Under the pieces are notes generated by a model. The model saw only the letters and a list, made by a program, of their open reading frames with translations, ran no database searches and was not told the origin of the DNA. 64,000 nt of DNA from Mesostigma viride (Eukaryota > Streptophyta > Mesostigmatophyceae > Mesostigmatales > Mesostigmataceae), in assembly GCA_009746045.1 (NCBI GenBank), contig RPFO01000213.1, positions 8,869,281-8,933,280 on the forward strand, read 5' to 3'. The position numbers and the translations under genes were made by a program. Below are positions 43,339 to 59,825 of the stretch, piece by piece. Every line of letters begins with the position of its first letter. Position 1 is the stretch's first letter.

Positions 43339-44656
43339 CAGTGAACAGCCATACGGCGTATAATACGCCGTATGGCGCGTATTATACGCCATACGCAAGA
43401 TTTCCGTATGGGTATGGGAAAAAAAATACGCACTGCGTATGGTTTGCGTATTTTTTGCGTATTGCGTATTTTTTGCGTATTTTTTGCGTATTTTTTGCGT
43501 ATGAACCGCGTTCGAAGTAGCTTCTGGCATCATTTTGGACGGCAGTGGAGCCGGAACTAGACTGTATCTAGGCGACCTGGAACTCCGCGACAAATAAACG
43601 ACATGCAGGTGCCAAGCTGGCCGTGCATGTACGACTGTACGTGCATTGCTGCAGATTGCTGCGTGTCGGACTAGGGTCTAGGAGACGAAGGACGAGGAAA
43701 TTAGGTGACGAAGTTATGTTGTCTGCCAACAAGGGCGCGCATCTGGCACCTAACATTTAATCGTAGCACAATTGACATCCAGGCACCATGGCTAGCGACG
43801 GTGATGGTGTGGGTCTATGGAACACGATGATGACTGGGCCGACGAGATGCAGGCCGTATTCGAGACTGTCTGGACACACATCGTGAAAGAACAGACTCTC
43901 AACAAGAAAGGGCAGCCGACAGGTAACTACAAGCTAAGTGACGTGCACACTTTTGGATGCAGAATTCTCGGGTTCTACCACCCGAGCAAGGCTAGCACCC
44001 GCCATATCATGGGCGCTACGTACGCGAAGGAGGCAAGAGTGAGCGAGTGCAAGAGGCCGCCGGAGGCATTACGTCGCAGGCTGCGGGGTATTTGGTGTGA
44101 CTCGCGATGCACATAAATGCCTTATTTAGCCATGCAGGCTGCTGCTAGCCAGCCACCGTACCATATGTGTTAATGGTTTAGGGAAGCTGGGTCGGGTTGC
44201 TGGCATGCATGGTATCCTGCACGCTAGCCACATTGTTGGCAGCCCGTATGGATTCTTGCTTCATGTAGATCAATATTGCATGGTGGCCTACCACGAGTAG
44301 GCAAGATGTCTGTTTCTGGCACAATGTCTTATTACTTTTGGCAAGTTGGCCGACTGACCGTGTGCTATTTACAGACATTATTAATAACAACAGATGTACA
44401 ATGCTTGTATTTGTAGGCATGCAGCGACGGCAACGGCAATATTATGTGATGATGTGTTAAATAAAGGCAAGTGGTGTTGCAAGAACACACAAAAAACATG
44501 CCTGATTGGTCAGAATGTTGAAGAACCCCCTGAACCATGCAAAAAACAGCATTTTCAAGAGTCCCCGTATGGTTTGCGTATTATACCCCGTATGGCGTAT
44601 TATACACCATACACAAGGGCCCCGTATGGCTGCGTATTGCGTATGGCTGTTCACTG
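43339..44656. mobile_element. hAT-like DNA transposon 1, non-autonomous
   Basis: Perfect 17-bp terminal inverted repeats (CAGTGAACAGCCATACG at the left, its reverse complement at the right) and an 8-bp target duplication GCGTGTAT (43331-43338, 44657-44664), the hAT signature. Both subterminal regions are dense in CGTATTATACGCC palindromes and GCGTATTTTTT repeats (five near 43446-43503), shared in style with hAT-like element 2 at 30.8 kb. No transposase. It interrupts the Copia RT within the same reading frame region. Confidence 0.95.
43817..44116 (+). CDS. Small unassigned frame inside hAT-like element 1
   Basis: 99 codons with normal-looking composition (DDDWADEMQAVFETVWTHIV, YKLSDVHTFGCRILGFYHPS), unlike the AT-rich flanks. 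No family recognised. It could be a transposase remnant, a captured host fragment or chance. Confidence 0.3.
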   Translation: MEHDDDWADEMQAVFETVWTHIVKEQTLNKKGQPTGNYKLSDVHTFGCRILGFYHPSKASTRHIMGATYAKEARVSECKRPPEALRRRLRGIWCDSRCT

Positions 44657-44664
44657 GCGTGTAT

Positions 44665-45079
44665 AGCTCCTCTCCTGGCAGACTCCCCGTGCCGTGATAC
44701 TCATTCAGGACAGGCCTGACATGGGGCACTGATACCTCATCCACAACCTTCCTCTTCAGCACAAATCTCAAAGCAAGCTTCCTTGATGCTGGGGGGCGTC
44801 TGTCTGTTGGTGCAGCACACTCAAACTGCAACCACTCCTCCAGTGCCTTGGAGAAGGCGAGCTTCCAAGCCTCAAACAAAGTAGGCGAGCTCATCTCTTG
44901 GACCAGCTGGTCATATGTCAAAGGAGAGTGTGCAGCAAGGCTCCTGTGAGTTATGCCAATACTGCTGGGGTGCAACACAGCTGGAATCACCAAACTGGCC
45001 GCTGGGGGCACCTCGATCCCCTTCGTCCCATTTTACACCCTTGACTGGCTTGGCCCTGCACCTGACTGGAAATGTTGTC
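44665..45079 (-). pseudogene. Copia RT, N-terminal part
   Basis: The minus strand (frame 45011-44457 before the hAT end) reads YDQLVQEMSSPTLFEAWKLA, LEEWLQFECAAP and LALRFVLKRKV, the standard Copia RT opening (W..A...E...L, then ..WVFKxK). It is cut at the GCGTGTAT site; the RT continues at 43330. Confidence 0.75.
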
Positions 45080-46023
45080 CTGAAATTTTCTAGGGGAATC
45101 ATCCCCCAGCCATCTCTTCTCAGAGCTGTAGCTCTGATAGAAATCCCAGGATTGCCCAGAAAATTCTGACCCAAAATCACAGGGCCATCATAGTCCTCTA
45201 GGACAAGGAAGGTCACATCCACACCCATGACAGGGGCAGTAACCTCTCCCAACACCCTTAGATGCGTCCTACCACTGAAATCAGACAACCAGGGGTAACT
45301 TGGTTCTCCGACCAGCAGTTCTCCTGTATGCTGAGGTCCCATGACAGAAACCTGTGCATTGGTATCTATCTCCATGGCAGCTACCTCAGGTTCATCCAAC
45401 TGGACAAGCTTGGACACCTTAGGCTCCTTCTTGGCTCTTTGCAAAGCCTGTACAATATCTGATAGACGCACACCCCTAGGCCTGGTGTCGGGCCGTTCCG
45501 GAGGTGCAGCCTGTCCGCCTGCTTGCCCAACCACCGTATGTGAAGGTACCCCAGGGGCCGGGCCAGGGTCACCCTGAGGGCTCGATACAGCTGTAGCACC
45601 CTGATCAGGAAGCTCCACGTCACCCCCGCCTTGTACACCAGCGGGCACCTGGAAGAGGTCTCCTTGATTACCTCCCCGGGGACGGATCTTTGACCAGGAC
45701 AGACGGTGCACTGCTTGGGAGCCATCAATGGCCACCCAGCACTTATGGCCAGCGGCTTCTACTCGGGTCACCACCCCATCATGCCAGCTGCCACGTTTCC
45801 CTGGAAAGCTTGGTTCCTTCCACACAACAACCTGTTGTCCAACGTTAGGTTCTAGGACACTCCAGCCCTTGTCTTTCTGCCTCAGCTTGAGGAACTTGGC
45901 CTCTAGCTTCTCCTTCCATGCCTGCTCAGCATCAGCTGTCAGCATCCTGGTATGCAGCATAAGAGGATTGATGGCAATGTCACCAAAGAACATGGGAGTC
46001 CTCAGGTTCAGCCTGTCCTCCAC
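44911..46023 (-). CDS. Copia integrase C-terminal tail plus aspartic protease-like domain
   Basis: 370 codons. The first third continues the integrase tail (MLTADAEQAWKEKLEAKF) and has an SH3-like barrel (VGQQVVVWKE, WHDGVVTRVE, VAIDGSQAVHRLSWSKI). A linker follows, then a retropepsin-like unit at about 45385-45080: MEIDTNAQVSVMGP (active-site box DTNA where DTGA/DSGA is usual), then VTFLVLEDYDGPVILGQNFL (the second hallmark, ILGxxFL). The order integrase-protease-RT differs from the Copia standard protease-integrase-RT. The Gly to Asn change in the active-site triplet may reduce activity. Both statements on activity are inference. Confidence 0.75.
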   Translation of the reverse strand: MEDRLNLRTPMFFGDIAINPLMLHTRMLTADAEQAWKEKLEAKFLKLRQKDKGWSVLEPNVGQQVVVWKEPSFPGKRGSWHDGVVTRVEAAGHKCWVAIDGSQAVHRLSWSKIRPRGGNQGDLFQVPAGVQGGGDVELPDQGATAVSSPQGDPGPAPGVPSHTVVGQAGGQAAPPERPDTRPRGVRLSDIVQALQRAKKEPKVSKLVQLDEPEVAAMEIDTNAQVSVMGPQHTGELLVGEPSYPWLSDFSGRTHLRVLGEVTAPVMGVDVTFLVLEDYDGPVILGQNFLGNPGISIRATALRRDGWGMIPLENFRTTFPVRCRAKPVKGVKWDEGDRGAPSGQFGDSSCVAPQQYWHNSQEPCCTLSFDI

Positions 46024-46936
46024 AGATCGAACGTAGCCATGCAGATGTCACAATGGCAGATGACGTCCTTGGAATCCTCTCCACCAGCAGCACAGTCTTG
46101 ATCTCTTGGATGGCTCTCTCCACCACCCCTTGCTGGCCGTGGCTCTCCCTGGGTGTAATCAGCAACTCTGGAAACTCTGGCAGGTTCTCACAGCACTCAA
46201 ACTGAATGTCACACTGCAACAACTCCAACCCAGGGTACCTGCTCCTTGTCAACTTCAGAGCAGCAATCAATGTAGGCTTCTCCATGTCAGGCAGGATCTC
46301 TAGGGTCTTGTACTTGGTATATCTGTCCACTGCCACCAGCAGCTTCAAACCCCTGATTCTCTGAATATCTACCTGCACATGGCCTGGCTGCAAAATAGGA
46401 GTCCTGGCATGAGACTGCTTGGGCTTTCTAGCAACTAGCCTGCACTTGCAAGCTTGAGCAACCTGTTGGCAGATGGAGTACAACTCACTTCCTCCCAGCC
46501 GTCTAGCAACTTGCAAAGACTGAGCTGCATGGCCAAACATGGTATGCAACCTTGAGGCATTGATGTCATACAAGAGAGAAAACCTTTTATTGTCATTATT
46601 AGCACTCAAGGTATGTACAGATCCCTTATGTACAGGAGGCACCAGGGTCGTGCCTGTCAGACTGTCTCCAGCCCTATCCTCATCCTGACCATCCTGTGCC
46701 AGTCCTGCACGGTCAGAATGCTTCTGAGATCCACCTGGGTCCACATCACCAGGTCCTACCTCAGGCTCAGCACCGCCATGGCGGGCACGTTGGCGAGTAA
46801 CCACTGCAGCTACAGCTGGCATACTCTCTGTGGTAACCAAGCTTGCCCCATCGTGTCCAATAGGCTCTTTCACTAGAGCATGGGGCTGCCCCTCACTGCT
46901 GTCACTAGCAGCTTCATTACACACCCCTGGGGGCAC
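45980..46936 (-). CDS. Copia integrase
   Basis: Starts with a low-complexity linker, then a GAG-pre-integrase-type zinc region (RLHTMFGHAAQ ... CQQVAQACKC, HHCC) and the DDE core: VQVDIQRI (first Asp), LLQCDIQFE (second Asp), GVVERAIQEIK (Glu). The family reaction is 3' processing and strand transfer of the DNA copy. The core ends in another frame from the tail (46023 onwards), so there is a frameshift near 46000. No protease was seen between gag and this domain. Confidence 0.82.
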   Translation of the reverse strand: MPPGVCNEAASDSSEGQPHALVKEPIGHDGASLVTTESMPAVAAVVTRQRARHGGAEPEVGPGDVDPGGSQKHSDRAGLAQDGQDEDRAGDSLTGTTLVPPVHKGSVHTLSANNDNKRFSLLYDINASRLHTMFGHAAQSLQVARRLGGSELYSICQQVAQACKCRLVARKPKQSHARTPILQPGHVQVDIQRIRGLKLLVAVDRYTKYKTLEILPDMEKPTLIAALKLTRSRYPGLELLQCDIQFECCENLPEFPELLITPRESHGQQGVVERAIQEIKTVLLVERIPRTSSAIVTSAWLRSICGGQAEPEDSHVLW

Positions 46937-46969
46937 CCTCCAGGGTTCAGGGATGTGTGCAGGCTCAAG

Positions 46970-47857
46970 TCAATGATCAGCAGCCTTGCCCTTGCCCTTG
47001 TCCTGGGATGGACCAGCCTTGTCCTTGCTGCCACCCTGAGCTGGCTTGCTCTGACCTTCCTGCCTCAGGTACGAGGGACACTCATTCCTGAAGTGACCCT
47101 TCCCCTGGCAGAAATAACATTCCACCTGACTGATGTCCCGTGAGGTCCCACTGCTGGGCCCAGCCTTGGGAGGACCACCCACCCTCTTGAAGTCAAACTG
47201 GGACTGTGGATGTCCCGACTTCGGCGGGGTCCCCCGTCCAGCCCTTCTGTCACGCCCCCTCCTGGACCTTCCTCGACCCCTTGAAGAGGTCTCAGGCCCT
47301 CTCGAGGGCGCTGGGCCCCCGTGGCCCGATCCCCTCATGGACTTAACCGTGGGTTCAGTGGCCTCCTCATCACCCTGACGAGGGCGCTTACCACCCACGT
47401 ACTTGCCGCTGAAACACTCATACAACTGGTCCGTCATGGCTGCCCAGCCATGGACCTGTCGCATGTGGATGGTCACATTATCCATGGTGACCGTATCCAG
47501 CTGCAGCGACTTGAGAAAGTCGCCCATGGCCATCCGATCTGCGACGAAGAAGCCCTTGGCCATGGCGTCCTCCCTCAGCTTGACGAAGTCTTCAAAGGCG
47601 TGGACCACTAGTTGCCCCTTGATGGGCTTGTAGTCCAGGTATTCTTGCTTCAGGTGGGACCCATCTATGGTCCTCTTGTCACTCAGGAACGACCTGAGTC
47701 GCGTCATAAACGCCGTCCAGGTGTCCCCCGCCGCGTGTCGCTCCCGAACAAACTTGAACAGCCGCCTCGCCGACTGCCGTATGTAGGCACTAGACGCCAG
47801 GATGCGAAGCTTGTCACCGTTGTATATCTCCGTGTACAAGTTCATGTCCTCTAACAT
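46970..47857 (-). CDS. Copia gag with zinc knuckle
   Basis: 295 codons: a helical gag core (ARRLFKFVRERHAAGDTWTA, LSDKRTIDGSHLKQEYLDY), an Arg/Gly-rich stretch (RGRGRSRRGRDRRAGRG), then a CCHC knuckle CYFCQGKGHFRNEC (CX2CX4HX4C) and a Lys-rich tail. Role by family: particle protein binding element RNA. The N-terminus (KDNWQPRDIL, stop at 47962) lies in the preceding frame; the ~100-bp break may be an intron or a disruption. Confidence 0.82.
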   Translation of the reverse strand: MLEDMNLYTEIYNGDKLRILASSAYIRQSARRLFKFVRERHAAGDTWTAFMTRLRSFLSDKRTIDGSHLKQEYLDYKPIKGQLVVHAFEDFVKLREDAMAKGFFVADRMAMGDFLKSLQLDTVTMDNVTIHMRQVHGWAAMTDQLYECFSGKYVGGKRPRQGDEEATEPTVKSMRGSGHGGPAPSRGPETSSRGRGRSRRGRDRRAGRGTPPKSGHPQSQFDFKRVGGPPKAGPSSGTSRDISQVECYFCQGKGHFRNECPSYLRQEGQSKPAQGGSKDKAGPSQDKGKGKAADH

Positions 47858-47961: not shown

Positions 47962-48226
47962 TTACAGAATGTCCCGGGGCTGCCAATTGTCCTTGATGGA
48001 CTGAAACTGGCCTAGCACCGCGTACCCCTCAGCAACGGTTGGTCGCTTAGGCGCCGCTTGATCTGCGGCTGGCGCGTGCTGCCCGCCCTGCGATCCTTGG
48101 CTCTGATTATCTGGCACATCAGCCTGGTCTCCCAGCGCCTGGCCGTCCCCGCGTCCATCGCGTCCACCGCGTCCATCGCGTCCATCTCGTCCATCCATCC
48201 CAGCGCCGCGCCGCCCGAAGCCCATA
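47962..48226 (-). pseudogene. Copia gag N-terminus, cut by the Gypsy insertion
   Basis: The frame from 48225 down to the stop at 47962 has a short Asp-Gly-Arg repeat (GRDGRGGRDGRGDG) and NWQPRDI. Removing the Gypsy element and one CATA copy joins it in frame to an upstream ATG in 59685-59727, independently confirming the Gypsy boundaries. Confidence 0.7.
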
Positions 48227-49134
48227 TGTCACGGACGCGCGCTATGTCATCCGGGCGCCCACTATGCACAAGACCGGTGACGTGCGCAAGGAATTTGTCT
48301 TCTACGCATTTTCGACAAAGGCTAGTGACCGGGGGGGGACACTAGCACTTGCAGCATAAGAGCGGACGAAAGTGTACGTGCACGCGCGCCGGGCCAGGCA
48401 CAGCTGGGCGCGCAGCACTGACTTGAGCGGACGGCAGCACAAGTGTGCAGCGTCGAGAGGATCATACGCGTGTTAGTGGACAGCTGGAGCTGAAGCTGTA
48501 CTGCTGGACTTCAACAGCGCCGAGGCTATTGACAGGCCAGGTGTCTTTGTGGTGTAGAATAGCGGGTCAACGTTATGAGGACTGGACAGAAAATGGAAAA
48601 GGACAATTTGCGGTGCGGAGCCAGATCGCTGGAATGAATGCGAAATCGCTGGCAGCCCTAAAAAGGGATTTCTTCTAGAAAGGAACGATTAGACGCAATG
48701 TTTGCTGGGCCACTCACACGCAAGGTGTGAGCGTGCAGATTGTCTGAAGGATATTATGCTTCGACCTTGCTGGACGTGACTCAATGTCGGACATTCCCAG
48801 GGACAGAAATGCCGGAGCCTCTAGGAGATGAGATCGGCAACAGGGTAGCAATTTAGATTTGTCCGGATGCCTTCCTGCTTTTGTTGGCATGTGTGGTAGA
48901 AAGCCAGGACGGCAACTGGAATGCGGTTTCTATTCGCATGGTTCAGGCAGCAAGATAGTTTTGGCATTCCTGGCTGGACTGACAAGTGTGGCGTGTGTCA
49001 TGCGTGTGGCATGACGAATGGACTGTGCAAAGTGTGTGTTGTGAAAGCATTATTCTATAGCAGGGGAGGCAATAAGGTGGTCATCAGGCACGAGGGACAG
49101 TTCCTTGTCCTCGGCTGAGAGCCCTCCTTTCTTT
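48227..49134 (+). repeat. Gypsy left terminal block B1
   Basis: Starts TGTCACGGACGCGCG. It matches 58406-59541 almost perfectly once the 230-bp block at 59200-59429 is excluded. After 49134 the sequences part, and block A, which follows B at the right end, is absent here. Confidence 0.92.
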
Positions 49135-49403
49135 ACTCGAAGAGACTACCCGGTAGTCTGCTTCCTTCTGTTCGAAGCCAAGACGTTGGCTTTAGTGTTT
49201 AGCAACCATCAGCAGTACAGGGAACGGCCTGGCTGACAGTTTGTAAAGGAAGTGTCTTGAGACAGATTTTAAGAAAATAGAACTAGCCAGAATTTGCTGG
49301 CTCTTGTCTTTTTCTGGCAGGCTAGTCGAGTCGTTATCCTTGACACCTGTTATAAAGCCTTTGGTTGTTGCTTCTTCTCAGCGAAACCTAGGCTTGTTGG
49401 TTC
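49135..49403 (+). other. Gypsy 5' leader
   Basis: Non-coding sequence between B1 and gag. No tRNA-iMet primer-binding sequence (TGGTATC...) was seen at the B1 edge, so the primer is unknown. Confidence 0.5.
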
Positions 49404-51239
49404 TTGTTTTGCCCATCGGTCAGCTGGTGCATGCCACTGACGCGAGCGCAGACTCGAGCCATGGCAGATGCAAATAGAGCAGATGCCGACACGTCCGCTC
49501 CGGGGTCGAATGGCGGGATTCCTCCCGCCGTACCCGCAGTGGGTGAGAGTCGCGACCAAGAAGCGCCGCTGAGTATGGTGGCGCTGTTCGCGCAGATGCA
49601 AGCGCAGATGCAGCAACAGTCGCAACAGTTGCAGCAGCAATTGGCGCTGCAGATGCGGGAAGTGACCGACAGATTGGTGGCCGTAGAGGGTCGTCATCTG
49701 CAGTCCACACCATGGGACGGGCAGGCATCGATGCCGGGCCCCAGTGGTGTTGCCGCGGAGCCGAGGGAGCGGGACCAGCCGCCAACCTCAGGTAATGCGG
49801 CGGGAAGGGCTTCGATGGAACCGGGGGTTTTGGCTGGGTCGCTAACCCAACACGACTTGCTTGGTGAGGCGGATGGTCAGCCACGGGGCGAGTATACGCT
49901 GGCGCCCAGGCGCCTGCCTTTCGATCAAGCGCGAGACGGATTGCACGAGGAGAACGGGGCAGGGCTGGCGCGCGCGATGGACCCACACAGGGGTGCACCA
50001 GGACGCATGCTGCCAGGCGGGGCCTCAATTCCGTTTGGGCGAGGCGGTGGGGCGCTGACCGGCGGGTCGACTGCACGGTGGTCAAGTGTGCCAATCGGGC
50101 GCATTCCGCCCATGGAGGACATAACCACGCCGCTGGCTTTCCGAGTACGGGAGGCAGCACGACCAAGCACGCTGGCGCAGGGACGCGCAGCTCAGCGACC
50201 GCCGGAGGATGCCGATGGGGTGCAGTACCCGCAAAGGGTGCGCCTCATACCGGAAGGCGCGAAGATGCCCACCCTACCACGGGTGGACATGCGCGAGAAG
50301 TTCTCCACAACCGGCAATCTGGCCACGCTGGCGCAGGCCTACAACGCGTACAAGTCATGGATTGATCTGCAATACATGACTACGCAAGGCGCTGTAATGC
50401 ATGAGTTTGTGATGAACAACATGCATTTTTTCTTTCACGGCCTTACGCTGAGGCGAGTGGCTAGGCTGGTGGAGCAGTGGAGAGAGGTCTCGCTGTACAC
50501 GCGTCACACGGACGTGTGGTTCGGCTTCGACGGGCGTGGCCAGCCCGACTATGACAACATCATGTATGGTGTCGACCCTGCCGAGGAACTGTGGGGCCTC
50601 CTTCGCCAGGAATACCCGGTGGAGACCATCAAGGCAGAGCGTGAGTGGCGCAGTTTCAAGATAGCCGAGGGTGAAACCCCGGAGCAATCTTACGAGCGCC
50701 TCATGGAGTTCGCCGGCGAAGTGGAGGACTGGTCCGAAAAGCTGGCGTGTCAGAAATGGCTGCAAGCGCTAGGCTCCAAGGAGATGGAGCTGCCCACGCC
50801 GCCCAACGGCCAGCCGTGGCGATTGCGGTCACTGTGCATTGAGGTCAGGGCCATGATGCGACGACACGCGCAAGGCCGGATCTCGGTAAGCACGGTGGTG
50901 GCCGAGCTGCAGGCCAAGGTCGACGCGCTGACCAAGGCCAAGTCGGGTGAGTCGTCTGCCACAAGACAAGCGCGCCCGCAAGGCGGCCACGGTGCTAGCA
51001 GGAACCAAGGGGGGTCTCGCAACGCCTCATCGCATGATGCAACCCAGGGTAACGCCGCTGGCGGCAACAAAGACGCTGCCGCCCCGACGCGAGCTGGGGG
51101 GGCACGTCCTCACAGACGGGTACTAGGACGGATGCGCGCAAATCGGGCTGCTTCCTTTGCGACAAGGATGGGCACCTTAGTCGCGAGTGTCCAAGCCGCT
51201 GCACGAAGCCGCATGGGGCAGACACGAAGTGGCACCTGA
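49404..51239 (+). CDS. Gypsy gag
   Basis: 611 codons; the likelier start is the methionine of MPLTRAQTRAMAD at 49434. It has a Gln-rich coiled-coil (AQMQAQMQQQSQQLQQQLAL, 49590-49660), a disordered Gly/Pro region and the retrotransposon gag core at about 50330-50780 (EFVMNNMHFFFHGLTLRRVA, ELWGLLRQEYPVE, EDWSEKLACQKWLQAL). A basic Ser/Gly-rich tail follows. The zinc knuckle that should close gag is read in the -1 frame, so the last ~45 codons of this frame are probably not native. Confidence 0.88.
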   Translation: MFCPSVSWCMPLTRAQTRAMADANRADADTSAPGSNGGIPPAVPAVGESRDQEAPLSMVALFAQMQAQMQQQSQQLQQQLALQMREVTDRLVAVEGRHLQSTPWDGQASMPGPSGVAAEPRERDQPPTSGNAAGRASMEPGVLAGSLTQHDLLGEADGQPRGEYTLAPRRLPFDQARDGLHEENGAGLARAMDPHRGAPGRMLPGGASIPFGRGGGALTGGSTARWSSVPIGRIPPMEDITTPLAFRVREAARPSTLAQGRAAQRPPEDADGVQYPQRVRLIPEGAKMPTLPRVDMREKFSTTGNLATLAQAYNAYKSWIDLQYMTTQGAVMHEFVMNNMHFFFHGLTLRRVARLVEQWREVSLYTRHTDVWFGFDGRGQPDYDNIMYGVDPAEELWGLLRQEYPVETIKAEREWRSFKIAEGETPEQSYERLMEFAGEVEDWSEKLACQKWLQALGSKEMELPTPPNGQPWRLRSLCIEVRAMMRRHAQGRISVSTVVAELQAKVDALTKAKSGESSATRQARPQGGHGASRNQGGSRNASSHDATQGNAAGGNKDAAAPTRAGGARPHRRVLGRMRANRAASFATRMGTLVASVQAAARSRMGQTRSGT

Positions 51240-51240
51240 T
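51103..51240 (+). CDS. Zinc knuckle in the pol frame
   Basis: Upstream of the first pol methionine (51239) the pol frame is open and encodes GCFLCDKDGHLSREC (CX2CX4HX4C, 51146-51190). The switch from gag to this frame must happen near the G7 run at 51096-51102. Either a -1 frameshift or a sequence error/indel explains it. Confidence 0.75.
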
Positions 51241-54200
51241 GAACAAGTGTCCAGCCGCGGGCATCAAGACGGTCCACTTCGCCGAGATGGCGGGCAAGAC
51301 CGACTCGATGGAAGCCCAGGTGGCTGCCATCAAGCATGGTGAGGAGGCGACGGCGCCCCCCAACCAATTCGAGACGGTGTACCGGGAGGACCCATTCTGG
51401 GCGCCCATGCCGGGTGACGTCGAGATCAACGCTGCGGAGGCTACCAAAGGCAAGCAGGCACGCAGCCCGCTTTCTTTTCAGCAGGCACCCATGTTGCCTG
51501 CCGGGCAGTTGCCCGCGTCCTTTTCCATGCCGCTGGCTGGGGTGCAATCTGCTTTTGAGCATGCGAACCCTGCTGGGCTGGAGCAGCGTAGGCGATTGGC
51601 GCCTGTGTACCCAATGCCGTTCATTGTGGACGTACCCATGTTTTCAGCACGGCAGGTGGTCGACACCTTCGGGCAGAAGGGGGTTGAGTGGCTGGGGTCG
51701 GTTGTGTCCGAGATCCAGTTGTTCGCAGATGGGCATGATGTGCGCACCTTGCGCAATTCTGAGTCCGTCACCTACGGGCGCCAGCCGGTAGAAGCCGCAG
51801 TGCCCGTGGTGCAAGCGGGAGTGGTCAGCACAAGTAGCCAGCAGCGCACTAGTGCAGTCCCCCAGGTTCCCACGGTGGTTCCATACCCCAATGGTGAGCC
51901 GTCCATGGCGTTCCAAGCAGTTGGAGCCTGTGGAGATGTATGGAGCGACATGGTGACATGTCCGTTGGTTGGCGCAGTCAAGCTTGATAGCGGTGCTCAG
52001 CCGCTAGTCATCAGCACGGACTTGGCCACCATGCTGAACCTGACCTACGAGAACGGTGGCTTAGTGGAAAGCCCCGTGTCTGTGTCAGGTTGGCAGGGTC
52101 CGGCTAGTAAGCCGTACGCTATGACGGCGGTTAAAGTCAACGTGATTTTCAATCCGTTGCGCGCCTCTAGCATGACCACCGTGTCCGCGTATGCGCTGGT
52201 GGTCAACAAGTGTGGATATTCCGCACTACTCGGGGTGGATGTCCTTGCTCGCGCCATGGTTCAGGTGGACTATAGGGCGGAGGAGGCATCTTACATCCCT
52301 GATTGGGATGGGGCTGGCCTGAAGCGGGCCAGCGTGCCGGTCTCATGCTTCAGTTCTTCAGCCGGGGCTGCACGCCTCAACCCTTCCGCGGCTGCGGGCG
52401 TGGTGGAGGTCAGCATGGTGGAGGTACGGGCGGCGGGCTCATCGGCGTGGGACAAGCATCGGACGGTGCTGCCCCAGCCAACGGCGAGCATTGCCAAGAT
52501 GCGCACGCAGTGGTCGCTGGATGCTGTGACGTCCACGCGGCAGCTGGCTATGCGCAAGCGGGTAACTGAAGCCGTCATCACCATTCCTCAGATGGCCAGC
52601 CATGGCCTCACTTTGCTGCAACCGGGTGTCTCGGAGGCCCAAGGTAATTTTTCTGCTGCAATCTTACCGCAGGCCCCTGATTTTGCCAAGGGTGCGGTAG
52701 TGTTGGAACTGTTTGCGGGGATCGGAGGGGGCATTGCAGGCTTTTTGGCCGCAGGCGGCGTGTGCCGTAAACTCATCGCGGTAGAGCCATCGCACAAGGC
52801 GCGTCAGGTGTACTTCAGTCACTGTGGCGTGTTGTCGCGAGAGTATCCCGCGCAGTTTCCGCCATCAGCATGGCGTGACCCGTTTGGGGAATGTCCTCAA
52901 GATATCCGAGCCATCGGTGAGGTGCAGGTGCAGCAGTTGTTGCGCAGGCATCATGCCATCGACTTGGTAATTGCGGGTTGGGAGTGCCAGGGCCTGAGCC
53001 AGGCAGGGCAAGGGCGGGGGCTAGCCGATCCGCGTAGCGCGCTGTTCTGGGAACTGTTGCGTGTGGTGGGACTGTTGCAGTCGCGTCAGCCCCATCCGCC
53101 TGCGTATCTGTTTGAGAACGTTGTGGCGGGTGACAGCCCACATCAGGCGGTGCGGGAGGACTGGGCTACAATCGTGGCACTCCTGGGGGAGCCCATCGTG
53201 TGTGACAACGCAGGGCTGGGTGGGCTCACGCATCGTTTGCGTGCCTATTGGACCAACGTGGCGTGTGCGACCGATGTGCAGGCGGTCTTGGGGGCCGTAG
53301 CAAGGCAGCATCCGAGTGTGTCTGCGGAGGTAGCATTGCCTTCCCACCTAGTCACGCAGAAGGTGGATAGCGAGGATCGCCCACCGTATGCACGCGTCAA
53401 CCGGGTCGGGAGCCCCATGTGTGCACTGCCGACCCTGGTCAGTTACCAAGGGTCGACAGCATACCGTGATCGGGGTAAGGGTCTCGTTTGGGACACTACC
53501 ACCGGTCTGTTGGTGCAGCCACCCGCAGAATTTCGTGAGGCCAGCATGGGTTTTCATGTCGGGGCCTCGGCGCTGCCGGGCGTGCTCGAGAGTGAGCGCT
53601 GGTCTTTGATAGGCCAGGCTATGTCGGTGTTGCAGGTCGGGTATGTGCTGCTTGCATCGGTTGCCGTGCGCCAGTCTGGGGGGGCGTCCCCAGCCAATCC
53701 GCCTCAGCAGGTTGAGGCGCGCGCAGCCAAACTGAAGCGCCCTGCAGCGACGGGGACTTCATCAGCATGGGGGTGGCGTCTGCGACAGGTGTGGACTATC
53801 ATTCTCATGACCGCCCTGCTGACCAGCACCGTGCTGGCCGGCGAGCCCACGCTGCATCGGGTAATACACCGTGCGGCACGCGAGGCTCCGGCGGTGGGTG
53901 TCACACCAGGCGTGGCAGCCTTTTCCTTGTTCCACGACGATGCGGCTAGGGCGCCGCATCTTGAGGCACATGCGGTAGCTGTGGGTGATCCCGCGGATAC
54001 GCACCCCTGGGCTATTGGCGAACACCTTTCTGATGCGCAGCGCTCAGCCATGCTAAAGTGGCTAGGCACTGCAAGGGGGGCCTTCGCTTTCACAAGTGAT
54101 GAACTGGGGTGTTTCAATGGTGGGACCATGCGTGTTCCATTGGACACTGACACCCCTTTGTTCCGACGCCAGCATCGCCTGAGTCAGGCCGAGTTGGATT

Positions 54201-54652
54201 TTGTAGCCGAGCAATGCAAGGAGTTAGAGGATGCCGGTATCATCAGGCAATCTTCCTCCAGCTATGCCGCTGCCGTTGTCGTTGCGCCCAAGAAGGACGC
54301 TATCACCGGGGCATGGACGGGTATGCGCATGGCCACCGATCTGCGGTTGCTGAATGCACACACACCCGTGGACCGTTACCCCATGCCACGTGTGGATGAT
54401 GTCCTGGATAAGATATCTCCTCATGTGAAGTTTGTGTCCTCGCTGGACCTGCGTAGCGGCTTTCATCAGATCGCAGTTGCGCCGGAGGATCAGCGGAAGC
54501 TTGCATTCTGGGGGGGCGGCAATTTGTATGAGTGGGTGCGCATGCCCTTTGGGCACCGCAACGCTAGTGCTGTTTTCCAACGAGCTATGGACAAAGTGCT
54601 TGCAGGTCTTCCTTTCGCCGCTTGTTCAACGTGTAGTACATTGATGATGTAA
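51239..54652 (+). CDS. Gypsy pol part 1: protease, C5-DNA methyltransferase, RT N-terminus
   Basis: 1137 codons. Protease at residues ~245-345 (VKLDSGAQPLVIS, then YSALLGVDVLARA). Methyltransferase at ~484-810: motif I LELFAGIGGGIAG (~490), AVEPSHKARQV (motif II), IAGWECQGLSQAGQGRGL (motif IV, ~580, with Cys; Glu replaces the usual Pro before it), DPRSALFWELLRV, YLFENVV (motif VI, ~625), THRLRAYWTN (motif VIII, ~665), CALPTLVS (motif IX) and IGQAMSVLQVGYVLL (motif X). Motifs are in canonical, unpermuted order. A hydrophobic segment follows (IILMTALLTSTVLAG, ~857-871), then RT fingers and palm motif A (SSLDLRSGFHQIAVA, ~1070). The frame dies after FAAC because of an 11-bp insertion before the YIDD box. 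Confidence 0.92.
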   Translation: MNKCPAAGIKTVHFAEMAGKTDSMEAQVAAIKHGEEATAPPNQFETVYREDPFWAPMPGDVEINAAEATKGKQARSPLSFQQAPMLPAGQLPASFSMPLAGVQSAFEHANPAGLEQRRRLAPVYPMPFIVDVPMFSARQVVDTFGQKGVEWLGSVVSEIQLFADGHDVRTLRNSESVTYGRQPVEAAVPVVQAGVVSTSSQQRTSAVPQVPTVVPYPNGEPSMAFQAVGACGDVWSDMVTCPLVGAVKLDSGAQPLVISTDLATMLNLTYENGGLVESPVSVSGWQGPASKPYAMTAVKVNVIFNPLRASSMTTVSAYALVVNKCGYSALLGVDVLARAMVQVDYRAEEASYIPDWDGAGLKRASVPVSCFSSSAGAARLNPSAAAGVVEVSMVEVRAAGSSAWDKHRTVLPQPTASIAKMRTQWSLDAVTSTRQLAMRKRVTEAVITIPQMASHGLTLLQPGVSEAQGNFSAAILPQAPDFAKGAVVLELFAGIGGGIAGFLAAGGVCRKLIAVEPSHKARQVYFSHCGVLSREYPAQFPPSAWRDPFGECPQDIRAIGEVQVQQLLRRHHAIDLVIAGWECQGLSQAGQGRGLADPRSALFWELLRVVGLLQSRQPHPPAYLFENVVAGDSPHQAVREDWATIVALLGEPIVCDNAGLGGLTHRLRAYWTNVACATDVQAVLGAVARQHPSVSAEVALPSHLVTQKVDSEDRPPYARVNRVGSPMCALPTLVSYQGSTAYRDRGKGLVWDTTTGLLVQPPAEFREASMGFHVGASALPGVLESERWSLIGQAMSVLQVGYVLLASVAVRQSGGASPANPPQQVEARAAKLKRPAATGTSSAWGWRLRQVWTIILMTALLTSTVLAGEPTLHRVIHRAAREAPAVGVTPGVAAFSLFHDDAARAPHLEAHAVAVGDPADTHPWAIGEHLSDAQRSAMLKWLGTARGAFAFTSDELGCFNGGTMRVPLDTDTPLFRRQHRLSQAELDFVAEQCKELEDAGIIRQSSSSYAAAVVVAPKKDAITGAWTGMRMATDLRLLNAHTPVDRYPMPRVDDVLDKISPHVKFVSSLDLRSGFHQIAVAPEDQRKLAFWGGGNLYEWVRMPFGHRNASAVFQRAMDKVLAGLPFAACSTCSTLMM
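52685..53680 (+). CDS. C5-cytosine DNA methyltransferase domain (within pol)
   Basis: The domain transfers methyl from S-adenosylmethionine to cytosine C5 in its family. The AdoMet loop (FAGIGG), the motif IV Cys in WECQGLS, the ENV of motif VI and the RLR of motif VIII are visible, and motif X closes the fold. The RS.LFWE.LR...P.YLFENV arrangement is closer to eukaryotic/DNMT3-type and phage-like enzymes than to DNMT1; this is a motif-level impression. The PC to EC change next to the nucleophile is unusual. It is fused in frame between protease and RT without its own start or stop, so it would be released by the element's protease. Confidence 0.9.
54626..54636 (+). other. 11-bp insertion at the RT active site
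   Basis: Between the Cys codon at 54623-54625 and TAC at 54637 there are 11 extra bases (TCAACGTGTAG). Without them the frame passes straight from FAAC into YIDDVIVFSATFEEH (RT motif C) and on to the half-LINE junction. With them, translation shifts and stops at 54652. Confidence 0.8.
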
Positions 54653-54730
54653 TCGTCTTTAGCGCGACATTTGAGGAGCACCTGGCGCACTTGGAGCAGG
54701 TTCGCTTGGCTCTCGAGGAGCATAATATGC
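54637..54730 (+). pseudogene. RT motif C segment of the Gypsy pol
   Basis: Reads YIDDVIVFSATFEEHLAHLE with both catalytic Asp residues in the frame that would follow FAAC. It is cut by the half-LINE insertion right after EEHNM. Confidence 0.85.
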
Positions 54731-55245
54731 TGCGGTCAGCGACCGCCTCCACCACCGACGCCATCGCCACAAAGCTCCAGGAGCTGGAGGACCACCGCCA
54801 GGCCCAGCAACGGGAGGTCACCGACCGCGCTCGCCGCGAGTGCCGAGTGGTGCTACGTCGCTTCCCCCAGAAGCCAGGTGAGACGTCAACCTCTCTTGCT
54901 GACGAGCTCAAGAACCAGCTTCTTACCCTCATGGGCCTGGTAGGTGAGGTAGAACTGCGTGGGTGCCACCGCCTTCCCCACTCACGGGACAAGGCGGCTC
55001 CCCCACCAGTCCTACTCACCTTCCCCTCCCCTGAGGATAAGCAGCGGTTCCTCTCTCGTCGCAAGCGGTTGCACGACCTCACCTGGACGCTGGATGACGA
55101 CCTCACCCCCGCTCAGCAACAGCAGCGACGCGACCGGTGGCCGGAATACCTCCGCCATAAGCAGGACCCCCAGAAGCCCAAGGTGTACTGGAGGGGCGGG
55201 GACCTGATGATCAACCACAAGATGTGGACGCCCCCAGCGGGCTAG
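54731..55245 (+). pseudogene. ORF1 C-terminal fragment of the half-LINE
   Basis: Continues by chance in frame from the Gypsy RT (EEHNM then LRSATASTTDAIATKLQELE) to the ORF1 stop at 55245 (WRGGDLMINHKMWTPPAG). The sequence equals the ORF1 C-terminus in half-LINE F apart from single changes. Confidence 0.88.
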
Positions 55246-55662
55246 AATAGCAATAGCCCTAGCTTGTAACCATTGGCGTCACTGCCGCTAAGGCAGCCAT
55301 GCCTAGAATGTTGCCTAGCTGTGCCAACACACCTAGTCACGTGCCGCCAACGCACGGTACACAACCAGCCATAGCCTTAGCCTAGTCCTAGTACAGCCAT
55401 GCCACGCCCTGGCTATGTTCAGATTACCTGCCCACGCTCCTTGCTATGATATGCTCACATGGGTCTTATTGCACCCACAGTTTGCCGGATCGTTAGCCTG
55501 TCCTTTTAGCTAGCCGCGCCCGATTGCAGCTGTGGCATGCCTTTGGCATGAAGGAGACTGGGGGTCTCTGCCCTTTCTCCTGTAGTGCACACACAGGGAT
55601 TAAAAGCACTTCGGTGCTCCGTGACTCCCCAACGGGAGCACGAGTTTAATTAATTAATTAAT
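54731..55662 (+). mobile_element. Half-LINE copy inserted in the Gypsy RT
   Basis: Target duplication TAATATGC (54723-54730 and 55663-55670); the first bases are ambiguous because the element may share C or T with the target. It is 5'-truncated inside ORF1, ends with the 3' hairpin (55619-55643) and (TTAA)n, and is nearly identical to the copy at 21.04-21.96 kb. It lies in the same orientation as the Gypsy pol. Confidence 0.95.
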
Positions 55663-55666
55663 TAAT

Positions 55667-57013
55667 ATGCGGCTGCACCCTGAGAAGTGCAAGTTCGCCC
55701 AGCGGACCCTCTCATTCCTTGGTCATCAGATTGTGCCGGGTGGCCGGACGCCTGATGCCGCCAAGGTCGAATCCATTGTGCAGGCCGCCGTACCCACGGA
55801 TGTCTCAGGGGTGCGGGCGTATTTGGGTTTGGCTGGCTATTACCGAGGTTACATTGAGAACTTCAGCAGCAAGGTGAAGCCCTTGACCGAGTTACTCAAG
55901 AAGGGGTGCGTGTGGGCGTGGGGTCCCGCACAGCAACGCGCCATCGAGACAATCAAGCAGGAGCTCACGTCGGCCCCGATTCTGCGCGCCCCTGACTATG
56001 CTTTGCCGTTTGTGTTATATACCGACTGGTCCAAGGTAGGACTGGGTGCGGTCTTGGCGCAAAAGGATGGTGATGGGCGCGAGCACGTTATTGCTTATGC
56101 TAGTCGCAGCAACAACCCAGCGGAGAGCCGGTATTCTTCCTATGAGGGGGAGGCACTGGCTGTGGTGTGGGCCATCAAGCACTTTCGCCCGTATTTAGTT
56201 GGGCGCGTGTTTACTCTGGTGACAGACCACCAGCCGCTTCAGTGGCTAATGACCAACACCAACCTGACGGGTAAGCTCGCCCGATGGGCCATGATTATCC
56301 AGGAGTACCACATGACCATTGTGCATCGGGCCGGCAAGGACCATGTCAACGCCGATGTGCTATCCCGATACGCCATGCCTACCACTGTTGACCACACTGG
56401 AGCCCGGGCCATGGGTGCCGAGGGCTCGTCGGGTTCTGTGGTCTTTGTGAACGCTGCTGGGTATGCGGCCGACGATGAGGAGGAGGCGTGGTGGCGCAGT
56501 GTCGAGTACTCTGTGGCGGACTTCGGCATCAGCGACGACCCGGTGCGGCCGTCGCCATTCACGCCATCCAAAGCTGTGTGCGCTATGGAAGAGGGTAGGT
56601 CTCTGTCCTTTGACATTGATCCTTCTCTGCAGCAGCTGATCGCTGTGCAGGCTCTCTTAGCGCGTAGCTCTCTTGCTGATTGCTACACCGCTGATATCTG
56701 GCTAGATGGTCGAGTTTTGGAGCAAGTGCAGGGTGCTGTCTTGACTCCTACTCCAGTCGATTGGACTCCTGCTCAGAAGGCGACGGAGTTGAACAGGGTG
56801 CAGCACAGGGCTGCAACCTATGGTTGGGAAGATGGGGTTTTGTACAAGCTGTTGGGCAAGCGTAGGGTGGTCGTCCCACCGCCTGACAAGCGCGTTGCTA
56901 TAGTGCAGGCGTACCACGAGCGGTATGGTCACTTAAGGGTGGCAATCGCACGCTCAGCCTCGTACGGACCAGCTATTGGTGGAATAACATGCGACACACA
57001 GTGGCCCAGGTAG
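55667..57013 (+). CDS. Gypsy pol part 2: RT thumb, RNase H, start of integrase
   Basis: The RT resumes after the half-LINE (MRLHPEKCKFAQRTLSFLGH, VRAYLGLAGYYRGYIENFS). RNase H follows: VLYTDWSKVGLGAVLAQ (first catalytic Asp), SSYEGEALAVVWAIKHFR (Glu) and LVTDHQPLQWL (Asp), then the tether HRAGKDHVNADVLSR. A Gypsy-specific linker leads to the integrase zinc region (YHERYGHL), where a 1-bp frameshift near 56936-56945 breaks the frame; the stop is at 57013. All RNase H catalytic residues are kept. Confidence 0.9.
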   Translation: MRLHPEKCKFAQRTLSFLGHQIVPGGRTPDAAKVESIVQAAVPTDVSGVRAYLGLAGYYRGYIENFSSKVKPLTELLKKGCVWAWGPAQQRAIETIKQELTSAPILRAPDYALPFVLYTDWSKVGLGAVLAQKDGDGREHVIAYASRSNNPAESRYSSYEGEALAVVWAIKHFRPYLVGRVFTLVTDHQPLQWLMTNTNLTGKLARWAMIIQEYHMTIVHRAGKDHVNADVLSRYAMPTTVDHTGARAMGAEGSSGSVVFVNAAGYAADDEEEAWWRSVEYSVADFGISDDPVRPSPFTPSKAVCAMEEGRSLSFDIDPSLQQLIAVQALLARSSLADCYTADIWLDGRVLEQVQGAVLTPTPVDWTPAQKATELNRVQHRAATYGWEDGVLYKLLGKRRVVVPPPDKRVAIVQAYHERYGHLRVAIARSASYGPAIGGITCDTQWPR

Positions 57014-57318
57014 TGGCCAGCTGTGTCCCGTGTGCTCGAACCAAGGCTAACTTTAGCGCAGATCATGGTGCCAAGGAGCTGATGTCGCTTCCCATCAAGG
57101 GCTTGTTTTATCGCTGGCACGTCGATCTGTGCGGGCCGTTTCAGGAGAGCCCTGACGGCAACCTCTATGTCATGGTATGCGTGGAGAGCTTTAGCAAATG
57201 GGTTGAGTTGATCCCCATTGCTGACAAGCATGCCGCTACCACAGCGAAGCATTTTGCAGACATCATCACCAGGTTTGGGGCTCCCGCGGACTCAGGTAGT
57301 CACGGACCAGGGTGGTGA
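56940..57318 (+). pseudogene. Gypsy integrase, N-terminal part in shifted frame
   Basis: In the +1 frame the zinc region continues (TLSLVRTSYWWNNMRHTVAQ, CVPCARTKA: the HHCC cysteines), then the core with FYRWHVDLCGPF (first catalytic Asp) and MVCVESFSKWVELIPI. A second 1-bp frameshift lies near 57283-57290 (GCTCCCGCGG), after which this frame stops at 57318. Confidence 0.85.
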
Positions 57319-58234
57319 GTTCAGGGGTGAGTTCCAGGAGTTGCTGGATGGATGTCTTATTGATCACCGTCGCACTTCTCGGGAGCATCCTCAGGCCAAT
57401 GGTTTGGCTGAGAGATTGGTGCAGACCGTCAAGCAGGCGCTGCGCAAGTGGAGCCTGCAGGTGCCGGAGTCGGCCAGGTGGGATCGCGAGTTGGCATGGA
57501 TTGCCATGGGTTATCGCATGTCTCCCCAGGAGTCTCTCGCTACCTTCTCCCCGTATTTCCTTCTGTTCGGGCGTAATCCTCTTTTGCCTACGGAGGCACA
57601 GGTTGCGCACCCCGAACCCATGGCCTTCGACAACGCTCAGCAATTTTTGGTTGAGGTGCTGGCCAGGGCAGAGACTTTTAAGAAGGTCATGCCCATCGCG
57701 ATGAACAACTTGTTCATTGCTCAGCACAGGGACTCCCTGCGTTACGCTCAGCGCCGGGGGGGCGCATACATGGCTCGCCAGCTGCGGTTTAGGCCAGGGC
57801 AGTATGTTTTCCTGCGCACTCAGCTGAAGCACACTTTGGATGTGGAGGCGGGGCCCACCATTTTGCGCATTGTGGCTATCAAACCATCGGGAGTGGCAAT
57901 TTTGGAGGGCGCCGACGGGAGCCGTACGACAGACAACGTCAGCAATCTCAGTCCCTGCTCACTGCCCAATTTGGTCCACGACCTCCAACCGCACACATCT
58001 CGCCGAGTCAAGGACGCCCAGTGTCAGGTTTGTCACCGGGTCGATCAGGCGGAGTCCATGTTATTGTGTGATCAGTGTAACTGTGGTTGGCACATGCAGT
58101 GCTTGCAGCCCGTGGTCACCAGCATTCCGGAGGGGGATTGGTTTTGTCCAGTGTGCACCGCTGCGCAGTTTACCTCCCGCAGCTTGACTGCGGTCACCGC
58201 TGCCCTTGTCTTGGTACGATCGCTGTCTTCGTGA
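57218..58234 (+). CDS. Gypsy integrase C-terminal part with PHD finger
   Basis: From about 57288 this frame gives VVTDQGGEFRGEFQELL (second catalytic Asp), HPQANGLAERLVQTVKQAL (Glu) and FLLFGRNPLLP. An SH3-like C-terminal domain follows (FRPGQYVFLRTQ, AGPTILRIVAIKPSGVAIL, NVSNLSPC). The protein then carries a PHD-type zinc finger (58022-58160) before a hydrophobic end and the stop at 58234. By family, the integrase inserts the element DNA; an attached chromatin-reading module would bias target choice (inference). Confidence 0.88.
   Translation: MLTSMPLPQRSILQTSSPGLGLPRTQVVTDQGGEFRGEFQELLDGCLIDHRRTSREHPQANGLAERLVQTVKQALRKWSLQVPESARWDRELAWIAMGYRMSPQESLATFSPYFLLFGRNPLLPTEAQVAHPEPMAFDNAQQFLVEVLARAETFKKVMPIAMNNLFIAQHRDSLRYAQRRGGAYMARQLRFRPGQYVFLRTQLKHTLDVEAGPTILRIVAIKPSGVAILEGADGSRTTDNVSNLSPCSLPNLVHDLQPHTSRRVKDAQCQVCHRVDQAESMLLCDQCNCGWHMQCLQPVVTSIPEGDWFCPVCTAAQFTSRSLTAVTAALVLVRSLSS
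58022..58160 (+). CDS. PHD finger at the integrase C-terminus
   Basis: Cys4-His-Cys3 order: CQVC, LLCDQCNCGWHMQCL, then GDWFCPVC, with the Trp two residues before the last Cys pair that PHD fingers show. PHD domains commonly bind histone H3 tails. It takes the place that the chromodomain has in chromoviruses. Confidence 0.88.
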
Positions 58235-58249
58235 TGGGGCCGGTCGCCA

Positions 58250-58260
58250 GCGAGGGGGGG
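58250..58260 (+). promoter_or_regulatory. Polypurine tract of the Gypsy element
   Basis: GCGAGGGGGGG directly precedes block A1 (58261). If it primes plus-strand synthesis, the reverse-transcribed long terminal repeat starts with A, not with B. Confidence 0.6.
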
Positions 58261-58403
58261 AATCATGGGACAGGTCCTCGCCCACCCCACAGGGCATGCA
58301 GTTAAGGCAGGCACATCAGCTCAGCTCATTTGGGTTTTACCAAATTAAGCTGAGTGGCCAGCCGCCATGGTGGCGCCGGAGATTGTGGCACGCAGACGCG
58401 ACA
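58261..58403 (+). repeat. Gypsy terminal block A1
   Basis: 143 bp from AATCATGGGACAGG to GACGCGACA. Repeated at 59542-59684 with the same length and no difference that I can see. Followed by GC and then block B2. Confidence 0.93.
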
Positions 58404-58405
58404 GC

Positions 58406-59541
58406 TGTCACGGACGCGCGCTATGTCATCCGGGCGCCCACTATGCACAAGACCGGTGACGTGCGCAAGGAATTTGTCTTCTACGCATTTTCGACAAAGG
58501 CTAGTGACCGGGGGGGACACTAGCACTTGCAGCATAAGAGCGGACGAAAGTGTACGTGCACGCGCGCCGGGCCAGGCACAGCTGGGCGCGCAGCACTGAC
58601 TTGAGCGGACGGCAGCACAAGTGTGCAGCGTCGAGAGGATCATACGCGTGTTAGTGGACAGCTGGAGCTGAAGCTGTACTGCTGGACTTCAACAGCGCCG
58701 AGGCTATTGACAGGCCAGGTGTCTTTGTGGTGTAGAATAGCGGGTCAACGTTATGAGGACTGGACAGAAAATGGAAAAGGACAATTTGCGGTGCGGAGCC
58801 AGATCGCTGGAATGAATGCGAAATCGCTGGCAGCCCTAAAAAGGGATTTCTTCTAGAAAGGAACGATTAGACGCAATGTTTGCTGGGCCACTCACACGCA
58901 AGGTGTGAGCGTGCAGATTGTCTGAAGGATATTATGCTTCGACCTTGCTGGACGTGACTCAATGTCGGACATTCCCAGGGACAGAAATGCCGGAGCCTCT
59001 AGGAGATGAGATCGGCAACAGGGTAGCAATTTAGATTTGTCGGGATGCCTTCCTGCTTTTGTTGGCATGTGTGGTAGAAAGCCAGGACGGCAACTGGAAT
59101 GCGGTTTCTATTCGCATGGTTCAGGCAGCAAGATAGTTTTGGCATTCCTGGCTGGACTGACAAGTGTGGCGTGTGTCATGCGTGTGGCATGACGAATGGT
59201 TTGGTTCATAGTCGAAGAGGACTCTCACGCAGCGTGTAGTCTCTTCGAGTCTCTCGTTAGTGGCCTTCGTGTTTCTCCCTTTCCTTGGGAGCAAGGCCGG
59301 TAGCATGTCATGGAGCGCTGCCTAACTGCGGGCTCGTGAGCATGGAGTGCATCGATATTGAGACTATCAACGTGTTGTAATTGTATTAACTTTCTCAATA
59401 AATTCCGCATGTGCGGCTTCATCATCAGACTGTGCAAAGTGTGTGTTGTGAAAGCATTATTCTATAGCAGGGGAGGCAATAAGGTGGTCATCAGGCACGA
59501 GGGACAGTTCCTTGTCCTCGGCTGAGAGCCCTCCTTTCTTT
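58406..59541 (+). repeat. Gypsy terminal block B2
   Basis: Same as B1 (48227-49134) with one substitution (TCCGG versus TCGGG near 59041), one base fewer in a G-run near 58510 and an additional 230 bp at 59200-59429. Confidence 0.93.
59200..59429 (+). other. 230-bp block present only in B2
   Basis: Inserted (or lost from B1) between CGAATGG and ACTGTGC. No target duplication. Contains a hairpin (CGAAGAGGACT...AGTCTCTTCG, 59214-59250) and CAATAAA at 59397, so it could supply a polyadenylation signal. Confidence 0.75.
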
Positions 59542-59684: not shown

Positions 59685-59825
59685 CATAAAGCCCGCTTGT
59701 TGGTTGATAGCTCCATCTTCCATGATGGCCTCTGTTCAGATCTGCTACAGCCAGCCAAGTGGCCAAGCAGCAATTAAAGCAATATAAGCTACTGAACAAG
59801 AAAGGAAAGTGCCAAGTGTTACCAC

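Follow-up and report, generated by a model that had tools for sequence, protein, structure and literature searches.

Retroelements that encode cytosine methyltransferases have been described from the charophyte Klebsormidium nitens, where KnitGypsy-Dnmt3 carries a Dnmt3-related domain under purifying selection within a Gypsy Pol and has a DIRS-like repeat plan (Fig. 4 legend), and from Symbiodinium, where SymbioDIRS-Dnmt3 and SymbioLINE-Dnmt were reported (de Mendoza et al. 2018, PMC5890265). The stretch analysed here, hereafter the window, comprises 64,000 nucleotides of the green alga Mesostigma viride (Streptophyta, Mesostigmatophyceae; assembly GCA_009746045.1, contig RPFO01000213.1, positions 8,869,281 to 8,933,280). 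It holds a retrotransposon at 48227-59684 whose pol frame includes a DNMT3-like C5-methyltransferase, and the identification of this locus as a DNMT-bearing Gypsy element is close to certain. Because architecture and repeat plan match those of KnitGypsy-Dnmt3, the window element belongs to that kind.

The likeness to KnitGypsy-Dnmt3 comprises a DNMT within a Gypsy Pol, a DIRS-like repeat order and purifying selection on the domain (PMC5890265). At the sequence level, the window domain finds the K. nitens polyprotein directly (E 8.2e-33), and P0009 (KFL_009030040), likely one of the copies of that paper, has the same order of protease, DNMT, reverse transcriptase (RT), RNase H and integrase. 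The initial annotation of the window, which rightly pointed to retroelement methyltransferases from Klebsormidium and dinoflagellates (PMC5890265), had called this a related or independent case; the shared order and the direct match make it related and not independent. The Mesostigma element differs in host and class and has Glu-Cys-Gln where P0009 has Pro-Cys-Gln in the catalytic motif; a PHD finger and 4-bp target-site duplications are established here for the Mesostigma element. The Symbiodinium elements belong to tyrosine-recombinase or LINE types, in contrast to a Gypsy element with a DDE integrase, although SymbioDIRS-Dnmt3 shows two differing domain orders in Pol, as do the green-algal types I and II described below (PMC5890265). 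In the open-licence literature the name KnitGypsy was found in one paper only, and no paper was found on Volvox Gypsy retrotransposons with a cytosine methyltransferase. Orchid Ty3/Gypsy elements reportedly carry an m6A demethylase domain, likewise a nucleic-acid-modifying enzyme in a Gypsy element, with a different enzyme and host. New here are the host, the high-copy open-frame state, the target duplications combined with split repeats, the Glu-Cys motif and the evidence for a widespread green-algal lineage with two architectures, for none of which an earlier report was found among open-licence papers.

The polyprotein and its copies in the Mesostigma genome

The single uninterrupted frame of protease, methyltransferase and RT that the initial annotation had described is borne out by the pol open reading frame (ORF) at 51239-54652 (+), which encodes 1137 amino acids comprising a protease, the DNMT3-like domain and part of a Ty3/Gypsy RT (ORF list, Pfam). 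The protease motif LDSGAQ lies at residue 249 (51983-52000) in an aspartic protease region with approximate limits 51944-52288 (+; profile match in the near-identical P0001). The methyltransferase domain occupies 52658-53692 (+), and the hidden Markov model check suggested for it returned the expected family (PF00145, residues 488-628, E 2.8e-11, 43.8 bits against a cut-off of 22). The claimed RT palm stands in part: RVT_1 matches residues 1017-1124 (54287-54610, +; E 5.7e-11), but the match spans positions 2-141 of a 205-position profile, and a motif search of ORF 51239-54652 found no YIDD-type motif. The retrotransposon pol was correctly recognised, but the element is larger than had been stated, since besides the pol ORF the interval 48227-59684 includes gag, RNase H, integrase and a PHD finger. 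The top database match of the queried region, Mesvir1/13565 (100% identity, rounded, over 71%), carries a label that we take to mean Mesostigma viride.

The M. viride genome, published at 441.8 Mb (PMC6947507), was searched as an assembly of 439.9 Mb in 2243 contigs. At least 41 scored copies of the pol ORF were found (2832 candidates), and 35 of these 41 have an open pol frame of 2074 codons that includes the domain. A chance ORF was rejected. The domain alone has at least 117 scored genome matches, all displayed at 100%, and its DNA is 100% identical over 1035 nt in 40 of 40 scored matches. A scored domain lies upstream of the RNase H region in 82 of 94 scored copies, at a gap of 1022-1024 nt in 81 of the 82; in the window copy the gap is 1975 nt because of an inserted fragment of a long interspersed element (LINE). 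The methyltransferase is thus part of the element, as first proposed, and a neighbouring host gene is rejected by its position in the same frame as pol and by the constant gap in 81 of 94 copies. The remaining 12 copies show no scored domain upstream among the matches listed, which is not proof of absence: of three inspected, the first has the domain, a second seems to have lost it through a deletion and the third lacks pol sequence at this place.

In one copy (L021/L022) the RT, RNase H, H2C2, rve and PHD domains follow in order in one frame with the DNMT part in register; the DNMT lies in the first fetched stretch, where the protease has no Pfam match. Another class of copies has pol in two frames of about 1040 codons. 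Compared with an intact copy, three of its members (L059, L060, L061) show no mismatch and a single difference, a 1-nt gap that they share and that lies between DNMT and RNase H; this gap may be real or a homopolymer error.

A second Mesostigma subfamily carries the domain at the same place, 65% identical to that of the window. Between the subfamilies the domain is less conserved than the RT (83% identity) and the RNase H (87%), and more so than the protease (52%). Nonsynonymous differences between the two domains are proportionally fewer than synonymous ones (pN 0.24 against a saturated pS of 0.73-0.75, in seven comparisons that amount to one, the loci being near-copies picked from 16 for an unbroken domain), and by this substitution pattern the DNMT is therefore under purifying selection between the subfamilies. 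Such a pattern bears on the idea that one retrotransposon copy picked up a host methyltransferase gene or gene fragment that serves no function. The window copy, which is itself broken, would fit such a one-off capture, but the same domain stands at the same place in the dozens of copies that the suggested search for further fusions recovered, in the second subfamily, and in K. nitens and Closterium polyproteins. Together with the purifying selection, these make a one-off capture very improbable, and a one-off insertion was rejected.

The same genome also holds a second multicopy C5-methyltransferase, seen as a 364-amino-acid frame (L053, G000:C47) with equal-scoring frames on nine other contigs. 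It has a PCQ motif and by eye a bacterial or viral look, and is possibly part of another mobile or viral element.

Repeats, insertion and state of the window copy

The element is bounded by split repeats in the order A1-coding-B1-GC-A2-B2. The window copy and 8 of 10 further copies show this order; for the remaining two, one end is missing from the fetched stretch. In the window, A1 (48227-49135, +) starts with TGTC and lacks a 228-nt stretch present in A2 and in the A1 of nine other copies. B1 (58261-58403, +; 143 nt) ends in GACA and is joined by the dinucleotide GC to A2 (58406-59541, +), the full form of A, and B2 (59542-59684, +), of the same sequence as B1, closes the element, again with GACA. 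Just 5' of B1 lies a purine run, GCGAGGGGGGG (58250-58260, +), which may correspond to a polypurine tract. Further variants are a shortened A2 in copy C1469 and 89 additional nucleotides between A2 and B2 in copy C1468. A 4-bp duplication flanks eight of the nine copies with both ends visible (the exception is C998), CATA at 48223-48226 and 59685-59688 in the window, and it differs from copy to copy (CATA, CATG, CCCA, TAGT, TTCT, AGCT, AGGT, TATG).

Split direct repeats are characteristic of DIRS/PAT-type elements, and the A-coding-B-A-B plan is shared with them. However, Pfam matches of the window element and the genomic copy include an rve integrase and no tyrosine recombinase, and DIRS membership was rejected on these grounds and on the target duplications. 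Compared with Ty3/Gypsy elements, the order protease-RT-RNase H-integrase occurs within one Pol in one genomic copy, and the TG...CA ends and integrase-type target duplications are present, whereas identical long terminal repeats around the whole coding region are absent, the repeats being split. The combination of split repeats, TG...CA ends and 4-bp duplications points to integrase-type insertion, and the enzyme that inserts this element, with its DIRS-like split repeats, is most likely a DDE integrase.

In 7 of 8 comparable copies, 1-4 of about 1137 sites distinguish A1 from A2, besides 2-4 gap columns (in the rearranged C1469, 32 sites), and this near-identity indicates that the insertions are young. 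Near position 105 of A (window 48330s and 58508s) lies a G run that has one base more in all 10 A1 repeats than in all 10 A2 repeats, an odd difference since ordinary copying of long terminal repeats is expected to even it out. Either neither repeat serves as template for the other over this part, it would seem, or there is a systematic sequence error, for which a homopolymer is a plausible site. Private variants of C1469 common to its A1 and A2 cut against separate copying of the two.

Within these ends, gag is an ORF of 611 amino acids at 49404-51239 (+; open from 49392, first in-frame ATG at 49431) that is 99.9-100% identical in ten other fetched copies, one of which matched only from nt 68. 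It overlaps pol at 51053-51239 (+), where pol is in frame -1 relative to gag and a zinc knuckle, CFLCDKDGHLSREC (51149-51190), lies in the pol frame. A run of seven G at 51096-51102 sits inside this overlap. Downstream, the YIDD of the RT lies in a different frame directly past a TAG stop (read by eye), and the RT is split by the LINE fragment (54728-55666, +). An ORF at 55667-57013 (+) encodes RNase H (RT_RNaseH 55994-56308) and continues pol to a frame break in the zinc-binding region of the integrase. The integrase (56989-58234, +; ORF list, Pfam) is divided between two overlapping frames (56989-57318 and 57218-58234) and ends in a PHD finger (58022-58156, +; Pfam E 1.3e-09). With the YIDD out of frame after a stop, a LINE in the RT and the integrase in two frames, the window copy is now broken and looks dead.

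The LINE fragment is 98.6% and 97.1% identical, respectively, to window positions 21028-21962 (+) and 20690-19767 (-), so that the interval 19767-21962 contains two near-identical LINE-type segments of the same family in opposite orientation. Directly upstream of the element, 42038-47857 (-) carries remnants of a Copia-like polyprotein (ORFs judged by eye). An ORF at 13221-13865 (-), with what by eye is a plant-type WRC-like zinc motif, is probably a host gene.

The methyltransferase domain and its green-algal relatives

Of the methyltransferase motifs that the initial annotation had listed, I (ELFAG), IV, VI (ENV), VIII (HRLR) and X (GQAM) are present in the window domain. Motif IV departs from the canonical form, reading GWECQ in place of the usual Pro-Cys-Gln in both Mesostigma subfamilies (window and P0025). 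The domain keeps the catalytic Cys (codon 52985-52987), ENV and the RxR of motif VIII. Among 127 element rows, 119 have letters at motif IV, and Cys is found in 109 of these and lost in 10. The residue before the Cys is Glu in 73, Pro in 29 and Ser or Ala in 7 of the 109; where readable, these rows also keep the motif VI Glu (103 of 105) and the motif VIII RxR (97 of 103). The domain might have lost catalysis and now serve Pol by binding DNA or RNA or in a structural capacity, a reading favoured by the 73 sequences with Glu for Pro, the window included, and by the ten rows without Cys, which include the volvocine P0072, P0119 and P0129. Pseudo-enzymes, however, are expected to lose the Cys, the motif VI Glu and the motif VIII RxR, whereas the Cys is kept in 109 of 119 rows, in 97 of them together with both other features, and loss of catalysis, while it deserves serious weight, is unlikely.

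A profile built from eight element domains (A1) finds DNMT3A best among PDB chains (1.6e-23), followed by DNMT3B/3C, DRM and bacterial enzymes, with DNMT2-type chains last and no chain named DNMT1 among the 56 matched. An AlphaFold2 model of the domain (pLDDT 81, pTM 0.85) has only DNMT3A, 3B or 3C entries among its best 50 PDB matches (top E 3.6e-15, TM 0.66 by query length). By these comparisons with PDB entries, of sequence and of predicted fold, the domain is closer to DNMT3 than to DNMT1, DNMT2 or bacterial enzymes. The same evidence bears on the substrate. The 2018 authors raised RNA as a substrate for the dinoflagellate LINE enzymes (PMC5890265), and the present enzyme might likewise methylate element RNA or host tRNA and not DNA; profile and predicted fold, however, lie nearest DNMT3 (by profile also DRM) and DNMT2-type chains are the weakest matches, which leaves this improbable. 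Viral contigs scanned with profile A1 gave 12 pattern matches, none of which encodes a relative.

With the RT-integrase part of the K. nitens protein as query, 181 proteins were obtained at E<=1e-60, the best 120 of which were surveyed for architecture; in all, architectures were read in 183 proteins. Two arrangements emerged. In type I the DNMT precedes the RT, as in the window, K. nitens P0009, Closterium P0161 and P0176 and further proteins, with a weak match in P0170 (label Tetstr1, presumably Tetraselmis). In type II it lies between RNase H and integrase, and 61 proteins, besides partial ones, have the order RT-RNase H-DNMT-integrase-PHD. Type II hosts are Haematococcus lacustris and that of P0173 (label Chrzof1, presumably Chromochloris), and metagenomes also contain this type. 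H. lacustris has type II proteins that retain Cys, EN and RxR (P0100, P0113, P0177) and others with a decayed domain (P0108, P0149, P0162, P0180). Pleodorina, Tetrabaena and Pseudoscourfieldia likewise have the type II arrangement with a decayed domain. Sixteen RT-RNase H-integrase-PHD proteins start too near the RT to be classified for the domain. Chromochloris and Pseudoscourfieldia are Chlorophyta by taxonomy look-up; for the remaining hosts we assume the accepted placement among chlorophytes and streptophytes.

Of four type II proteins scanned for PF00145 (cut-off 22 bits), P0100 gave no match, P0173 and P0007 (whose sequence is cut at its start) scored 20.6 and 15.6 bits, and P0006 reached 29.5, so that a survey with PF00145 could miss such domains. 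The survey of the 2018 study used that family (Fig. 1a legend, PMC5890265). In the type II proteins P0004, P0006 and P0007 about 200 more residues follow the PHD finger or integrase. With their DPW-containing motifs they resemble, by eye, a second methyltransferase of the Rossmann type; Pfam returned nothing in this region of the two scanned, P0006 and P0007.

The types separate in trees of the RT-RNase H-integrase backbone. From these, proteins covering <70% of columns (106 rows kept) and then near copies (81 kept) were dropped; the careful tree has 29 chosen rows, P0069, P0138 and P0173 not among them, and splits types I and II with support 100/99. In the quick 81-row tree type II forms a clade (support 95) that includes two DNMT-less rows, and type I is not one clade, being mixed with rows that miss the 5' part. 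The quick DNMT tree, which left out ten degenerate rows, rows <230 columns, P0001 and near copies, also splits the types (supports 82 and 86). The careful DNMT tree unites 13 of 14 type I rows in a clade with support 98/99 and places the long-branch row P0163 with a type II row; a clean type split appears in no more than 14% of its bootstrap trees. Within its branch the window is sister to K. nitens P0009 (SH-aLRT 85) or to P0117 (83/93), depending on the tree.

Whether the domain was captured once or twice was judged from profile scores and not from a rooted tree, human DNMT3A alone being too distant to root one. A type I-only profile recognises all 13 type II proteins tested, at 275-360 bits, and a type II-only profile recognises 7 of 7 type I proteins at 216-338 bits; for both profiles the mixed profile A1 had served to align the rows. 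A human DNMT3A segment reaches 70 and 43 bits with the two profiles, scores lowered by the use of an N-terminal segment only (the whole chain has 86.5 bits with the mixed profile), and the best free-standing proteins reach 62 and 52. This mutual recognition, far above the DNMT3A segment, favours one capture with relocation over two captures from unrelated sources, and suggests that types I and II may derive from one ancient event. The fuller history is an evenly balanced proposition: a DNMT3-like enzyme captured once, in ancient times, would have founded a green-algal clade of DNMT-bearing, mostly PHD-finger, Gypsy elements in streptophytes and chlorophytes, with one relocation within Pol, a change from Pro-Cys to Glu-Cys in most members, and a second branch overlooked by Pfam-based surveys.

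Possible role of the enzyme

The best explanation of the locus, and a fairly probable one, is that the copy in the window inserted recently and has since broken, and that it belongs to a multicopy Ty3/Gypsy-type element whose Pol-encoded DNMT methylates the element's own new DNA or the chromatin at its landing site. In intact copies the protease would release the enzyme from Pol, wholly or in part, and the enzyme would travel with the RT and the PHD-tagged integrase. PHD fingers in general are common chromatin readers. Since enzyme and integrase come from one Pol, the enzyme would be at hand when the complementary DNA (cDNA) is made and inserted, and could methylate that DNA, or landing-site chromatin, before or during integration. 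The element would keep the enzyme because new copies survive better. The likeliest role, and the most economical one to assume, is that the enzyme methylates the element's own cDNA or acts at the landing site; self-methylation of cDNA taken by itself is a tentative proposal to which we give slightly less than an even chance, and cDNA methylation has been proposed by de Mendoza et al. for DIRS elements (PMC5890265).

Several observations weigh against a methylating role in the element's own propagation. When the Klebsormidium domain was tried in yeast, no methylation resulted, an outcome its authors regarded as inconclusive (PMC5890265). In the window domain the motif IV Pro is Glu, and in the second Mesostigma subfamily the domain is broken, partial, diverged or missing in 9 of 16 fetched loci. 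At least one copy seems to have lost it by deletion, with pol nucleotides 101-401 in its place. The domain is decayed in several chlorophyte elements, including those of Pleodorina, Tetrabaena and Pseudoscourfieldia, and relatives without it exist (K. nitens P0067, also P0104 and P0126). The CpG observed/expected ratio is higher in the element (0.85) than in the rest of the window (0.74), so the trace that deamination would leave after self-methylation is missing, but these are young copies.

Alternatively, the enzyme might restrain the element or its competitors, methylation silencing copies and lowering the load on the host. The 2018 paper itself raised this possibility, and silent K. nitens elements, KnitGypsy-Dnmt3 copies among the examples, carry CHH and CHG methylation (PMC5890265). 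The Mesostigma family has, in contrast, amplified recently, as the 1-4 differing sites between A1 and A2 in 7 of 8 comparable copies indicate, and self-restraint is a rather unlikely role, somewhat less so than methylation of RNA.

Methylation of the element's own DNA or landing site thus remains the preferred reading. Transposons are, as a rule, what DNA methylation acts on. An early-branching streptophyte harbours a recently amplified family with its own DNMT3-like enzyme and with kin across green algae, in the light of which the acquisition described from Klebsormidium in 2018 becomes one part of a possibly single and long-lived alliance between Gypsy elements and a methyltransferase. The family also presents an enzyme lineage with an odd Glu-Cys active site, and, with dozens of near-identical copies in an alga that is in culture, Mesostigma is a host in which self-methylation can be checked.

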